In this document: positions 11,496 through 59,602 of the stretch, piece by piece
Position numbering within the stretch: position 1 is the first letter of the stretch
How the letters are laid out: every line of letters begins with the position of its first letter
Source of the DNA: Clostridia bacterium
GTDB lineage: Bacteria > Bacillota > Clostridia > Christensenellales > CAG-1252
Assembly (NCBI GenBank): GCA_024685775.1
Contig: JAIKVL010000032.1
Coordinates: 1 to 64,000 of the forward strand
Direction: 5' to 3'
Length of the DNA stretch: 64,000 nucleotides
Notes under the pieces: generated by a model
Told to the model about the DNA's origin: nothing
Databases searched by the model: none
The model's input: only the letters and a program-made list of their open reading frames with translations
Position numbers and translations under genes: made by a program

Positions 11496-13334
11496 ATGTA
11501 TCAATCTTTGTATCGCAAATACAGACCGGATACTTTCGAAAAGGTCATAGGTCAAGAGCATATCACGACGACGCTCGTCAATCAGATCCGAACGGGGAAT
11601 ATCGCTCACGCCTATCTTTTGACCGGAACGCGCGGAACGGGTAAAACTTCCGTCGCCAGAATTTTTGCGCGCGCCGTAAACTGTCTTTCGCCCGTCAACG
11701 GGTCGCCTTGCGGAGAATGCGAAGTTTGCAAAAAACTTCTTTCCGGGACGAGTTTGGACGTCGTCGAGATCGACGCCGCTTCCAATAACTCGGTCGAAGA
11801 CGCCCGCTCGATCCGCGACAGCGTCCGCTACGCTCCGATTGATTGCAAATACAAAGTCTATATCATCGACGAAGTCCATCAGCTTTCCCAAGCGGCGTTC
11901 AACGCGCTTTTGAAGACTTTGGAAGAGCCCCCGGCGCACGCGATCTTCATTCTCGCGACGACGGAAGTACAAAAGATCCCCGCCACGATTTTAAGCCGTT
12001 GTCTCAGGCTGGATTTCCATTTGGTTTCACAAGAGCTTTTGGAAAAGCACGTCGCCGAGATCTTCGATAAAGAGGGCATTTCTTACACGAAAGAAGGCGT
12101 CTCCGCGATCGCCGCGGCAGGCGCGGGCAGCGTCCGCGACACGCTCTCCGTCGCAGACATGTGCGCTTCCTATTCGGACGTCGTCAATTACGATTGCGTC
12201 CTCGGCGTTCTCGGCGCGAACGATCCTTCTCTGATCGCCGCGATCGCGCTTTGCGCGCTCTCGGGAGATATTAAGAACGCGATCACGCGCGTCGAATCCG
12301 CGTCTTCCCTCGGAAAGAGCATGCAGGTTCTGACCAAAGATCTGACGAAATATTTCCGCGATTTGATCATTATCAAAAACGACGATAAAGCAAACGAGGT
12401 TTTGCGTTTACCCGACCACCTTTTCACCGTCGCAAGAGAAATCGCCGTCGCGTACGACGGAAGCGTCCTTATGCGCGCATTGGATATTTTTTCCAACGTC
12501 GAAGCAAAAGAGCGTTACAGCGCGCAACCGAAGATCCTTCTCGAAAGCGCGATCATCAAAACCGCGACGCTTTCCGGGGAAGATTTCTCCGATCTTTTGG
12601 CGCGCGTCGCGACGCTTGAAAATAAAGTCAAAGAATTCGAGGGTTCGCCCGCGGCTCGCCCCGATTATACGGCGATCCTTTCTTCTTTGTCCGCCGTTCA
12701 AAAACAAACCGTAGTCGAAAAACCCGCGGAAAAAGCGCCGGTTGAAGAAAAACCGGAGCAAAAGCAAGATGCCGCGGAAGTAATCAAGGGAGAAAAGAAA
12801 GAGATCCCCGTTTTCCCGACGCTCAAAGAGACCGCTTCGGTCGAATTGCCGTTTGAGACGGAAAGCGCGAGCTCGCCCATCCTTTCCGAAGCGAAAGCGC
12901 CCGAGGATCTGCCGTTTGACGTTCCCGCGGAAGATCCGCAAGAACCCGTTTTGACAAATGCCGACGTCAAGAACCTCCTTCCGAAGGAAGTCAAAGACGA
13001 GATCAAAAAGCTCAGAGGTCGACTGATCAACCGCTTACGCGAGCGCAAACAGCTGATGCTGTATCTCGCCGTCTGCGAAGAGGGCACGCTCATTAAAGTC
13101 GAAAACGGAAAGATCGTTATGGCGTTCCAAAAGGAAAGCGATTACAACTATTGCAACAATCCGCAGGTCAAAAAGTATTTGCAAGCGCTTTTTGCGGAAG
13201 AATTGAATTTTGATTGCGATTTGTCGCTCTTGATGTATGACGATCATTCGCCGAATTCGATTTCGAACGCGGATATTCTGAAATTATTTGCCGGAGCAGA
13301 CTCCGTCAATTTCAAAAACGTTCACAGGAGGTAA
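11496..13334 (+). CDS. dnaX: DNA polymerase III subunits gamma/tau
   Basis: The 612-residue clamp-loader ATPase. The N-terminal AAA+ module has Walker A GTRGTGKTS (near residues 44-52), the four zinc-binding cysteines in CLSP-CGECEVC, Walker B IIDEVHQ and the sensor-1 TTEVQKIP. The middle is a collar domain, and a Pro/Glu/Ala-rich linker from about residue 395 to 480 leads to a C-terminal tau-like domain. Tau links the polymerase and helicase at the fork and loads the sliding clamp. It heads a dnaX-ybaB-recR operon, the standard Bacillota order. Confidence 0.96.
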   Translation: MYQSLYRKYRPDTFEKVIGQEHITTTLVNQIRTGNIAHAYLLTGTRGTGKTSVARIFARAVNCLSPVNGSPCGECEVCKKLLSGTSLDVVEIDAASNNSVEDARSIRDSVRYAPIDCKYKVYIIDEVHQLSQAAFNALLKTLEEPPAHAIFILATTEVQKIPATILSRCLRLDFHLVSQELLEKHVAEIFDKEGISYTKEGVSAIAAAGAGSVRDTLSVADMCASYSDVVNYDCVLGVLGANDPSLIAAIALCALSGDIKNAITRVESASSLGKSMQVLTKDLTKYFRDLIIIKNDDKANEVLRLPDHLFTVAREIAVAYDGSVLMRALDIFSNVEAKERYSAQPKILLESAIIKTATLSGEDFSDLLARVATLENKVKEFEGSPAARPDYTAILSSLSAVQKQTVVEKPAEKAPVEEKPEQKQDAAEVIKGEKKEIPVFPTLKETASVELPFETESASSPILSEAKAPEDLPFDVPAEDPQEPVLTNADVKNLLPKEVKDEIKKLRGRLINRLRERKQLMLYLAVCEEGTLIKVENGKIVMAFQKESDYNYCNNPQVKKYLQALFAEELNFDCDLSLLMYDDHSPNSISNADILKLFAGADSVNFKNVHRR

Positions 13335-55408: not shown

Positions 55409-56476
55409 TTATTCCTCCGGATTCTCCATCGAATCCAAAATGGAAGAATAGGGTTTAACGTCGATCTTCCATTCCGTGAGTTTCGCGGCGAGACGCGCGT
55501 TTTGCCCTTCTCTGCCGATCGCAAGAGAAAGCATATTGTCGTTAACGATGACTCTCGCGGAATGCTCTTCGTCGTTCACGTGGACCTGCACGGCTTTCGC
55601 GGGGCTGATCGCGCGGGCGATGAATTCAAGCGGATCCGCGCACCAGCTGATGACGTCGATCCTTTCTCCGTTGAGCTCTTGAACGATGACGTTGATACGG
55701 CTGCCTTTCGGTCCGATGCAAGCGCCGACCGCATCGACGTTCGGATCGTCGGAATAGACGGCGATCTTCGTGCGGAAACCGGCTTCACGGACGATGCGTT
55801 TGATCGTAACGAGGCCGCTCTTCACCTCCGGAACGTCCATTTCGAACAAACGACGGACGAAATCGGGATGCGAACGGGAAACGATAACCTGCGGAGAACG
55901 CGTGTTCGTCGTCAAACGGCGGACGAGGACTTTAATCATATCGCCGACGTTATATCTCTCGTGACGGATCTGCTCGGAGATCGGCATAATCCCTTCCATC
56001 TGCGTCGGAAGGATCTCGACGTAGACGCTCGTGGGCTCGACGCGGCGGACGATCGCATTCACGATCTCGCCTTCTTTCTCGCTCATTTCGTTAAAGATCT
56101 GATCCTTTTTGATGTCGGTCAAACGCTGAACGATGACTTGACGCGCGGTCTGCGCGGCGATACGGGAAAAGTTCTTCGGAGTGATCTCTTGGGAGATCGT
56201 GTCGCCGACTTTATAGCTCGGCTTGATCTTCTTCGCTTCTTCGAGGGATATCTCTTTTTCTTCGTCCGTCACTTCGTCCACGATCGTGCGATACGCGAAA
56301 ACACGGATCTTGTTTTGTTCCGGGTTGAGTTTGACTTCGATCGCGGTTCCGTCGCCGTACTCTTTCTTGTAGGCGGAGCTAAGACCCGCTTCGAGAGACG
56401 CGATAAACTCCTGCTTATCGATTCTCTTTTCCTTTTCCAACTCATCCAACGCCGCAAAAAAATCTTTGGTTATCAT
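55409..56476 (-). CDS. nusA: Transcription termination/antitermination factor NusA
   Basis: 355 residues: an N-terminal RNA-polymerase-binding domain (about 1-125), S1 domain (about 135-200) and two KH domains with GPKGSRINVIVQEL and IGREGQNARLAAKL. It has the short Bacillota form without the C-terminal acidic repeats. Follows rimP by 8 bases with GGAGG upstream. Confidence 0.97.
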   Translation of the reverse strand: MITKDFFAALDELEKEKRIDKQEFIASLEAGLSSAYKKEYGDGTAIEVKLNPEQNKIRVFAYRTIVDEVTDEEKEISLEEAKKIKPSYKVGDTISQEITPKNFSRIAAQTARQVIVQRLTDIKKDQIFNEMSEKEGEIVNAIVRRVEPTSVYVEILPTQMEGIMPISEQIRHERYNVGDMIKVLVRRLTTNTRSPQVIVSRSHPDFVRRLFEMDVPEVKSGLVTIKRIVREAGFRTKIAVYSDDPNVDAVGACIGPKGSRINVIVQELNGERIDVISWCADPLEFIARAISPAKAVQVHVNDEEHSARVIVNDNMLSLAIGREGQNARLAAKLTEWKIDVKPYSSILDSMENPEE

Positions 56477-56484
56477 ATTTCCTC

Positions 56485-56946
56485 CTAAAATGAGATATAG
56501 GGTTTGGCAACCGCAATATCTTTAATTGCAATTTCGATTTCGCCGTTCGCCGTTTGAAGCGCGATCACACCGCCTTCAAACTTCGACAAAACGCCGACGT
56601 GCTTTTTCGCGCCCGCGACGGGAGCGTAAAGCGAGACTTCGATCTCCGTCCCGATTTTACGAAGATAATCTTTCTCCGTCTTCAACGGGCGATCGAGACC
56701 GGGCGAAGAAACGTTCAGAACGAAGGGCGCGCCCGCCGTCGGATCGAGCTCGTCGATCGGACCGTCGATCGCGTTCATGACGATCTCGGTATCGTCCAAA
56801 CTGACGCCGCCGGGCTTATCCGTGTCGATAAAGACGGTCAGATGCATGGCGTCGTGTTGCTTTTTGTAGCTGACCTCGACGAGATCGTAGCCCAAAGAAG
56901 CCAAGATCGGTTCGACGAGTTCGGTTACGCTGTCTTTTACTGACAT
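56485..56946 (-). CDS. rimP: Ribosome maturation factor RimP
   Basis: 153 residues with the N-terminal alpha/beta domain (LVEPILASLGYDLVEV, HLTVFIDTDKPGGVSLDD) and a C-terminal Sm-like domain (GVLSKFEGGVIAL). It binds the 30S subunit during assembly. The start at 56946 has GGAGGA 3-4 bases upstream. Head of the rimP-nusA-ylxR-ylxQ-infB block. Confidence 0.95.
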   Translation of the reverse strand: MSVKDSVTELVEPILASLGYDLVEVSYKKQHDAMHLTVFIDTDKPGGVSLDDTEIVMNAIDGPIDELDPTAGAPFVLNVSSPGLDRPLKTEKDYLRKIGTEIEVSLYAPVAGAKKHVGVLSKFEGGVIALQTANGEIEIAIKDIAVAKPYISF

Positions 56947-56976
56947 ATTCCTCCGATAGGAGCCCTTCATAAATTA

Positions 56977-57108: not shown

Positions 57109-58566
57109 CTATTCGCGCAGGAGTTCTTTCGCGATCTCGACCGCCTCTTCAAGCGCGCCGTCGACTTTTCCTTCGCCTTTATTTTGAGAAATCGAAACGG
57201 TTCGGCTCTCGTTCGAGAAGAGATAACGAAGGGGTTTCGCCGTTTGATTCAAAAGATCGATAAGAAACTGCGGATTCGAAGCGGCGATGGGTTTTCCCGC
57301 GGAAAATTTGATCAGATCGGGAATAACGGTCGACAAACGCGGCGAAGCGTAACCTTTCGCGTTTGCGAATTCGGCGCGCTCCGTTTTCTCCGTAAAGGCG
57401 ACCTTCAAAAACGAATGAACGTATTCTCGGATCTTATTTCCTTCGACGAAACACATCGCGATCTCATACGGGACGAACGCACGCTCCGTCTTAATCGCGC
57501 GGATCGCGGCGGTAACGGTCGGCGGGACGGACGCGCGCGGCTCTTCGGCGCGAACATCGCCCATGTCGAATCGGATCTGACTGTACACCTCTTCTTCATA
57601 GGGTTTCGGCTCCAAAACGCTGTACCGTTCGGGCGGCGCAAGCGGTTTCGTCTGCTCGTGGATCAAAGCGTAAGGAACCGTGCAAAGCGCGATCGAACGC
57701 GCGTACATACTCAAAGACGCTTTATCGTCGCGGCTGTTCACCCTACCGCGGCAAACGACGTCGACCCCGTTTTGCAAAAGAGGCATCGCCCCGTCGATAT
57801 TGACGAAGACGTTCAAAGAACCCGTCGTGTCGTTGATACTGAACGTGTAATAATGCGGATAAAACCTTCTTCCTTCCACACGCTTGCTCTCGTCTCGATC
57901 ATAATAGCGCAGGAAAGCGACTTTCCCGCAACAGACGACGTCTTGCCCTTCGCCTTTGAGCGTGCTGATATGGACGGCGGGCGAAAGCAGTTCGGACTCT
58001 TTTCCGAAAAGTATCTTTTTATCCGTGACCGAAACGCTTTTTCCGTAGCGTTGCGCCGATTTGGTCTCGATTTTGATCTCTTGATCGTCCGGGATCAAGA
58101 CGAAGGTCAATTCGGAATCCGATGAAAAACGTTCGTATATGAACTTTTTGATGCGTTCGTCGAAATCGACGATCTCCATATACTTTTTCAAATTTTCCGC
58201 GACGGGGATATCCAAACGGATCTTATCGTCGATTTTCACTTGGATCGCGGTAAAATCGATATTCGCGCTGACCAAAGGAAAATGCTTTTCCATATACTCG
58301 ATCAAAGCGGACTTGAAATTCTCCTCGGTAACGACGATCTTTTCGAATTTGCAATACACGGTAAACGACCCGCCGAGAGCCTTTTTAACGACGTCCTTGA
58401 TCTTTTCGACGTCGGTCGAATTAAAATGGTAATCGAAAATATCCTCGGGCATCAAAAAGACGACGTTCGCGCGTCGATCCTGCGTGGAGACCTCCACCCG
58501 TCCGAGACGAAGATAATCGTACGCTCCGTCGAATTCTTCTTTCAGCAAATGCAAAATATCAGTCAC
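57109..58566 (-). CDS. PolC-derived protein: N-terminal and OB-fold regions plus inactive exonuclease-like domain, no polymerase
   Basis: 485 residues at the position normally held by polC (between ispG and rimP). Residues about 1-170 resemble the PolC N-terminal domains and about 207-296 the OB fold (VVCCGKVAFLRYY ... GVDVVCRGRVNSR). Residues about 353-450 follow the pattern of the PolC DEDDh exonuclease, but the FDxETTG motif reads RAIKTERA (356-363) and the VAHNxxFD motif reads IAASNPQFLI (427-436), so the metal-binding acids are gone. PHP and polymerase domains (about 900 residues) are missing. The frame is intact, overlaps ispG by 8 bases and ends normally, so it looks retained. It may be an accessory replication protein. 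The assignment combines position and pattern and needs a profile search. Confidence 0.7.
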   Translation of the reverse strand: MTDILHLLKEEFDGAYDYLRLGRVEVSTQDRRANVVFLMPEDIFDYHFNSTDVEKIKDVVKKALGGSFTVYCKFEKIVVTEENFKSALIEYMEKHFPLVSANIDFTAIQVKIDDKIRLDIPVAENLKKYMEIVDFDERIKKFIYERFSSDSELTFVLIPDDQEIKIETKSAQRYGKSVSVTDKKILFGKESELLSPAVHISTLKGEGQDVVCCGKVAFLRYYDRDESKRVEGRRFYPHYYTFSINDTTGSLNVFVNIDGAMPLLQNGVDVVCRGRVNSRDDKASLSMYARSIALCTVPYALIHEQTKPLAPPERYSVLEPKPYEEEVYSQIRFDMGDVRAEEPRASVPPTVTAAIRAIKTERAFVPYEIAMCFVEGNKIREYVHSFLKVAFTEKTERAEFANAKGYASPRLSTVIPDLIKFSAGKPIAASNPQFLIDLLNQTAKPLRYLFSNESRTVSISQNKGEGKVDGALEEAVEIAKELLRE

Positions 58567-59602
58567 GGAGATCCTCCTCGATGATCGAAAGGAGTTCGAG
58601 CAGGATTTTATCGTTCGGAACGGTCTTTATGATCTTTCCGCTCTTCATAATCGCAGACTTTTCCTTACCTCCCGCGACGCCGACGTCCGCGTTCGACCCC
58701 TCGCCCACGCCGTTTACGACGCAGCCCATAACCGCGACCGTGTAGGGCTTTTTGATATCCTTCGTCGCTTCCTTGATCTTTTCGGAAAAAGTTAAAACGT
58801 CGATCTCCGTTCGCGCGCAAGTCGGACATGAGATCACGTCCACGAAATTCTTTTTGAGTCCGATCGCCTTCAAAAGGTTGTCCGCCGCGTAGACTTCGCG
58901 AACGGGATCTCCCGTCAAAGAAACGCGGATCGTATCGCCGATCCCATCCAAAAGAAGCGCGCCGATCCCGGCGTACGATTTCGCGAGCGCGATCTCGCCG
59001 CCCCCCGCTTCGGTCACGCCGACGTGAAGCGGATAATCGCATTCCTTCGCGATCAATCGATAGGCTTCGACGTTCGTTTGAACGGACGAACACTTCGCGG
59101 AGATCACAATATCGTAAAAGCCGAATTTTTCGAGCAATTTGACGTTTTCGAGCGCGCTTGCCGCAAGCGCTTTCGCGCCGAATCCGTAGGCTTCGCGGGC
59201 TTTCTTTTCAAGCGAACCGCCGTTTACGCCGACGCGGATCGGGACTCCGTGACGCTTCGCCGCGGTAACGACGGATTCGACCGCCCTTTCCGAACCGATA
59301 TTCGACGGATTCAACCTGACTTTGTCCACTCCGTTTTCGATCGAGGCGATCGCGAGTTTATGGTCGAAATGAATATCCGCGACCAAAGGAAGATCGGTCG
59401 ATTCGCGGATCTCGCGAAGAGCCTTCGCGGCGGCTTCGTCGTTTACGCTGACGCGAACGATCTCTACGCCCGCTTTTTTAAGCGCGGAAATTTGAGCGAT
59501 CGTCGCTTTCGCGTCGCTCGTCTTCGTGTTCGTCATGGATTGGATCGAAACGGGCGCGCCCCCTCCGATCTGTAAATTTCTTATCTTAACGGATTTCGTC
59601 AT
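58559..59602 (-). CDS. ispG: 4-hydroxy-3-methylbut-2-en-1-yl diphosphate synthase (flavodoxin)
   Basis: 347 residues with the N-terminal IGGGAPVSIQSMTNT, a TIM barrel and the 4Fe-4S ligands CPTCART and MGCVVNGVGE. It makes HMBPP in the MEP isoprenoid pathway, together with dxr encoded two genes upstream. Lies 3 bases after rseP. Confidence 0.97.
   Translation of the reverse strand: MTKSVKIRNLQIGGGAPVSIQSMTNTKTSDAKATIAQISALKKAGVEIVRVSVNDEAAAKALREIRESTDLPLVADIHFDHKLAIASIENGVDKVRLNPSNIGSERAVESVVTAAKRHGVPIRVGVNGGSLEKKAREAYGFGAKALAASALENVKLLEKFGFYDIVISAKCSSVQTNVEAYRLIAKECDYPLHVGVTEAGGGEIALAKSYAGIGALLLDGIGDTIRVSLTGDPVREVYAADNLLKAIGLKKNFVDVISCPTCARTEIDVLTFSEKIKEATKDIKKPYTVAVMGCVVNGVGEGSNADVGVAGGKEKSAIMKSGKIIKTVPNDKILLELLSIIEEDLRD

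Follow-up and report, generated by a model that had tools for sequence, protein, structure and literature searches.

A polymerase-less descendant of PolC at the polC locus of a Christensenellales bacterium

We analyzed a 64,000-bp stretch of a Clostridia bacterium genome (contig JAIKVL010000032.1, positions 1 to 64,000; referred to below as the window) and identified a polymerase-less PolC of 485 aa at 57109..58566 on the minus strand, recognized by its frame, by profile comparison and by its conserved place in the operon. The gene order at this locus is ispG - truncated polC - rimP - nusA. The upstream neighbour, ispG (58559..59602, minus strand), overlaps the truncated frame by 8 bases, and a ribosome-binding-like AGGAGG (58573..58578, minus strand) lies within the end of ispG, upstream of the GTG start of the truncated gene. 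Downstream lie rimP (56485..56970, minus strand) and nusA (55409..56476, minus strand), the latter named from its sequence and conserved place. Only 138 bp separate the truncated polC from rimP; therefore, no polymerase part is concealed downstream of the frame.

The family of the window protein was compared with 13 full PolCs of the order by profile-profile alignment. The N-I/N-II region (residues 1-190; 57997..58566, minus strand) aligned by hhalign to PolC residues 24-213 with 97% probability, the OB fold (residues 191-305; 57652..57996, minus strand) to residues 211-330 with 96%, and the exonuclease region with 97.5%, all three being collinear. DnaE, included as a negative control, gave 0.1%, while the OB of the window's family matched the OB of DnaE at 74%, as expected from the common fold. 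The N-I/N-II region is one that we take from the literature, without retesting, to be KH-like and, in PolC, related to tau domain V. Beyond the OB fold, a linker modeled with low confidence carries QIRFDM, a hexapeptide resembling a clamp motif (residues 330-335; 57562..57579, minus strand), in the alignment column that holds QxxLF in relatives. The protein ends in a degenerate DEDDh exonuclease domain (residues about 345-485; 57112..57534, minus strand) whose catalytic residues are gone, all five DEDDh positions being substituted in the alignment (A, R, L, gap, E).

The window protein on its own gave only a weak OB match in single-sequence searches (Pfam, E 0.007) and no match to the PDB by phmmer. 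The top PDB match of the family profile was the exonuclease of T. maritima PolC (2p1j, E 0.0011), and the 510-560-aa form with an intact exonuclease motif (exo+) matched PolC structures 9qpc and 3f2b. AlphaFold models of 8 sequences, built on a shallow alignment confined to the window protein and loci of the contig scan, were good for the N-terminus and OB (pLDDT mostly 70-86 in the N-I/N-II region of the window protein); the C-terminus was poor in the whole protein and somewhat better when modeled alone, with modest confidence. Foldseek ranked PolC first for the whole model, matched the OB to 3f2b (rmsd 2.5 over 105 columns) and matched the C-terminal domain to DnaQ-type and PolC exonucleases. 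The window protein lacks the PHP, polymerase and HhH parts of PolC; there was no C-family polymerase domain with catalytic aspartates, and the PolC model TIGR01405 matched nothing at the locus. When the truncated forms were aligned, the order was N-I/N-II, OB, exonuclease, with everything C-terminal of the exonuclease gone. The PHP stretch ahead of the exonuclease, which in full PolC runs 84-96 residues from the PHP start to the exonuclease motif, was gone as well. We conclude that the window gene is an in-place descendant of polC.

Between the window's genome and its nearest relative, dN/dS was about 0.10 for the truncated polC, 0.115 for ispG and 0.10 for rimP; within the truncated gene, the OB gave 0.05 and the dead exonuclease domain 0.16. 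These figures are rough, as dS was high and near saturation, and they indicate that the protein is under purifying selection despite its dead nuclease. Members of the window's family also share invariant non-catalytic stretches (e.g., SPRLST.IPDL.KF and AKPLRY). Their presence in the dead exonuclease domain suggests that the domain has some role, and we infer that it is likely a binding surface.

The initial annotation, made from sequence alone, had described an intact PolC remnant without polymerase between ispG and rimP, keeping the N-terminal and OB regions and an exonuclease-like domain without catalytic acids, and had taken the intact frame overlapping ispG to suggest selection. All of this held, by operon place, by domain-by-domain profile homology (96-98% for N-I/N-II, OB and exonuclease in the PolC profile check that it had proposed), by the substituted DEDDh positions, and by the 8-base overlap together with the low dN/dS. 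Its description of the remnant as a paralogue did not; the gene is the orthologue of polC.

The genome to which the window belongs (1.71 Mb, 38 contigs) is 97% complete, and within it no other PolC was found: TIGR01405 had no match above its cut-off, and the best-scoring protein, at 112 bits, was DnaE. Below the cut-off the model picked up only DnaE and one unrelated exonuclease, both away from the locus. This search rules out a full polC elsewhere in the genome. The sole C-family polymerase, and the only match to DNA_pol3_alpha, is a DnaE1 of 1,215 aa with an intact PHP site and the clamp motif QxxLF. A compensating stand-alone DnaQ was not found in this genome with PF00929 or TIGR01405. In most relatives of the window's genus there is a separate DnaQ-type exonuclease, 190-260 aa long and with its motifs intact (among others, L149:5282-5923, L150:5273-5875 and L147:6278-6919). 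The window's own genome yielded a single RNase_T-type exonuclease (L068:2597-3631), of 344 aa, with a long extra C-terminal part. The window that holds the truncated polC also holds dnaX (11499-12563, plus strand), inside a 620-aa frame. We considered whether tau had lost its C-terminus and rejected this, as the dnaX frame is not shortened.

Across the order, the slot ispG-X-rimP-nusA was filled by one of three types: a full PolC of about 1,400-1,500 aa, a 510-560-aa exo+ form in which TIGR01405 picks up the exonuclease alone, or, in the window's family, a 485-520-aa form with a dead exonuclease. The window protein had a direct match in 31 of 61 genomes, its own included. Full PolC was retained in 91 of the 297 genomes analyzed from the order (88 above the PolC cut-off and three, G106, G076 and G065, with PolC split over contigs) and was absent from the other 206. 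The contig scan for the truncated form used a genus alignment, the family-wide alignment being too diverse. The truncated-form profile was matched near full length in at least some 150 cases; these were single frames, mostly of 500-560 aa, and none came from a PolC genome. For the lower-scoring families, representatives were inspected singly. A polymerase-less PolC in the same operon was found in representatives of nearly every PolC-less family; relatives include Christensenella sp. UBA3770, UBA3217, UBA3798 and UBA4247 and rumen Clostridia MAGs (NCBI order Christensenellales). Outside the order, 277 genomes of the class showed no full-length match to the truncated form; the exonuclease matches examined there sit in PolC-length frames. 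One candidate from outside the order, a 481-aa protein of genome G436 (L159:2616-4058), was rejected as an unrelated exonuclease; it has an N-terminal membrane-like segment, a C-terminal BRCT-like stretch and an adjoining integrase. Two variants were noted within the order. In family f30 the truncated PolC (L138:1189-2586) has lost the OB and kept the exonuclease. In family f11, which otherwise bears PolC, neither a full PolC nor a truncated form was found in genomes G057 and G300, and PolC was apparently lost outright in this part of the family.

These surveys also bear on what the initial annotation had offered as explanations. Its suggestion that polC had moved elsewhere failed for this genome, its alternative, replication of the lineage by a different polymerase, gains support from the single DnaE1, and assembly loss, which it had named as a possible refutation, was not borne out, the same truncated gene lying between ispG and rimP across many families. 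Beyond what it had claimed, the sequences indicate that the truncation is clade-wide, that the exonuclease of most relatives looks active, and that the linker holds a clamp-type motif.

A tree of 40 DnaE proteins split the genomes with full PolC from those with the truncated form by one change (SH-aLRT 100). The truncation of polC is therefore most simply a single event, likely in the ancestor of a large clade of the Christensenellales, which are gut bacteria. All 40 DnaE1 proteins carry the complete nine-residue PHP signature HHDHEHCDH, a state that has been called active (PMC12926913). All 62 exo+ proteins have the full DEDDh motif, and in each of the 27 exo-dead proteins it is disrupted; the latter make up family f1 (that of the window), genus g73 of f32 and most of f19. 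When a tree was built without the exonuclease, using only the N-terminal and OB columns, nuclease death required 3 changes, 2 of which are forced by well-supported branches. About three deaths of the nuclease are thus implied, one of them in the window's family.

We first noticed a QxxLF-like peptide recurring in the stretch that links OB to exonuclease. We then scored a hold-out of 40 further proteins not examined before; Q..[LMIFV][FLYM] occurred at one column in 34 of them, whereas shuffled linkers gave an expectation of 3.3 for any position. One hold-out protein (L180) is the same gene as one already seen (L118), and several are close relatives. Since the hold-out genomes share common ancestry, these statistics overstate independence and the nominal probability should not be taken at face value. 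Of the 13 full PolCs, 12 lacked such a motif between OB and exonuclease, and every one had it near the C-terminus. In the literature the clamp motif has the consensus QL[S/D]LF or QxxLF, with the weak hexapeptide QTSMAF serving in epsilon (PMC12309361). That the linker of the exo+ forms binds the sliding clamp is inferred from the motif sequence, without binding data. Strict QxxLF was found in none of 15 members of the window's family. The hexapeptide pattern Q..h.h was present in 11 of the 15, and the glutamine with a hydrophobic fourth position was kept in 13 (e.g., QIRFDM, QIGFDF). Other exo-dead forms kept the motif in 4 of 12 cases. With the strict motif lost in the window's family and in most exo-dead forms, clamp binding by the window protein is uncertain.

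Sequence evidence thus establishes PolC ancestry, loss of catalytic residues, retention under constraint, a sole DnaE1 and conservation of the motif, with truncation most simply a single event. To account for these observations, we propose that an ancestral polC lost its PHP, polymerase and HhH parts in place, leaving N-I/N-II, OB and the 3'-5' exonuclease, and that DnaE1 was left as the sole replicative polymerase. The linker newly formed between OB and exonuclease carries a motif of the sliding-clamp type. In most families the protein would act like epsilon in E. coli, as a clamp-tethered exonuclease working in trans behind DnaE1, with the OB gripping single-stranded DNA and the tau-domain-V-like N-terminus gripping DnaE1 or the clamp loader. 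There is a reported parallel, in that the PolC exonuclease of B. subtilis reportedly proofreads in trans for DnaE3 (PMC12926913). The nuclease would have died independently in three families, the window's among them, where the PHP site of DnaE1 is able to proofread, and there the protein would serve as a non-catalytic fork adaptor that binds the clamp, the clamp loader or DnaE1, and single-stranded DNA. In the absence of binding or activity data, we consider this proposal, an epsilon-like clamp-tethered subunit of DnaE1 that is here a non-catalytic adaptor, as likely to be wrong as right. A bolder reading, in which a polymerase became a stand-alone clamp-tethered exonuclease subunit and then a catalysis-free replisome protein in three lineages including this one, could equally go either way.

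Other explanations must be weighed against this proposal. It remains possible that the exo+ forms are clamp-associated repair or end-trimming nucleases (mismatch repair, gap repair or Okazaki ends) and the exo-dead forms regulators of such a pathway. The intact PHP proofreading site in every DnaE1 tested means that a second proofreader is not required, and the nuclease was lost about three times, both of which favour this explanation. On the other hand, active PHP sites are likewise found alongside full PolC in Clostridia (PMC12926913), so that redundancy of proofreaders is normal there, and the truncated forms keep N-I/N-II, the proposed clamp-loader contact of PolC (PMC3919608). A departure from replication altogether, towards a KH/OB protein that associates with RNA or ribosomes and belongs to the rimP-nusA operon, is less probable and we consider it unlikely. 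In its favour are a KH-type match to protein S3 of the ribosome (E 0.017), a weak RbfA match in one member and the operon shared with rimP and nusA, but the PolC N-terminus already has KH-like folds, full PolC occupies the same operon, and the exo+ relatives carry the clamp motif.

That the gene is a functionless decaying remnant is highly improbable and already contradicted; catalytic residues have been lost in three lineages, yet the frame is open in all family members found, dN/dS is low and non-catalytic stretches are invariant. Most of the genomes used seem to be metagenome-assembled, which would allow for an assembly or binning artefact, but identical architecture and neighbours in independent assemblies from many families all but exclude it.

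In comparison with known systems, the truncated form resembles PolC (TIGR01405 / NF001688) in its operon place and in its collinear N-I/N-II, OB and, in relatives, DEDDh exonuclease. It differs in having no PHP, polymerase palm, thumb and fingers, HhH or C-terminal clamp motif, in its size (485-560 aa against about 1,440 aa) and in a clamp-type motif that now precedes the exonuclease. PolC has its DEDDh exonuclease inserted in PHP, whereas the window protein has no PHP and a homologous exonuclease that is catalytically dead. The exo+ relatives are like DnaQ/epsilon in being separate DEDDh exonucleases that carry a clamp-type motif and occur where the genome encodes one DnaE1. Unlike epsilon, the truncated PolC has PolC-derived N-I/N-II and OB, its motif lies before and not after the nuclease, it has no known contact with a PHP domain, and its nuclease is dead in the window's family. 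Binding to the alpha subunit is inferred. The DnaE1-only replication system (Timinskas 2013, PMC3919608) likewise has a single DnaE1 with active PHP and QxxLF and no PolC, while the Christensenellales clade retains a PolC-derived protein. The PolCs without exonuclease insertion (6% of PolCs, PMC3919608) are another loss of a PolC domain within Clostridia, in the reverse sense, as here the polymerase is gone and the exonuclease region kept.

Two surveys of C-family polymerases admitted only sequences whose polymerase domain was intact or recognised with confidence, and polymerase-less PolCs therefore could not appear in them. We found no description of such a protein in the open-access literature searched, outside which lay bioRxiv and most subscription papers. 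The role of the PolC N-terminal and OB domains has so far been largely inferred, and PMC3919608 states that it is unknown how PolC and DnaE1 divide their tasks in Clostridia. The clade amounts to a natural domain-deletion experiment, in which the PolC polymerase was dropped and the N-terminus, OB and nuclease kept, with even the nuclease later proving dispensable, and it isolates the non-polymerase function of PolC. DnaE1 with a PolC-derived accessory protein would be a replication system beyond the three described combinations, and drugs directed at the PolC polymerase are predicted to have no target in this clade. In the tree of 40 DnaE proteins, the DnaE1 end branches were seemingly longer in PolC-less genomes, as if DnaE had evolved faster after PolC was lost.
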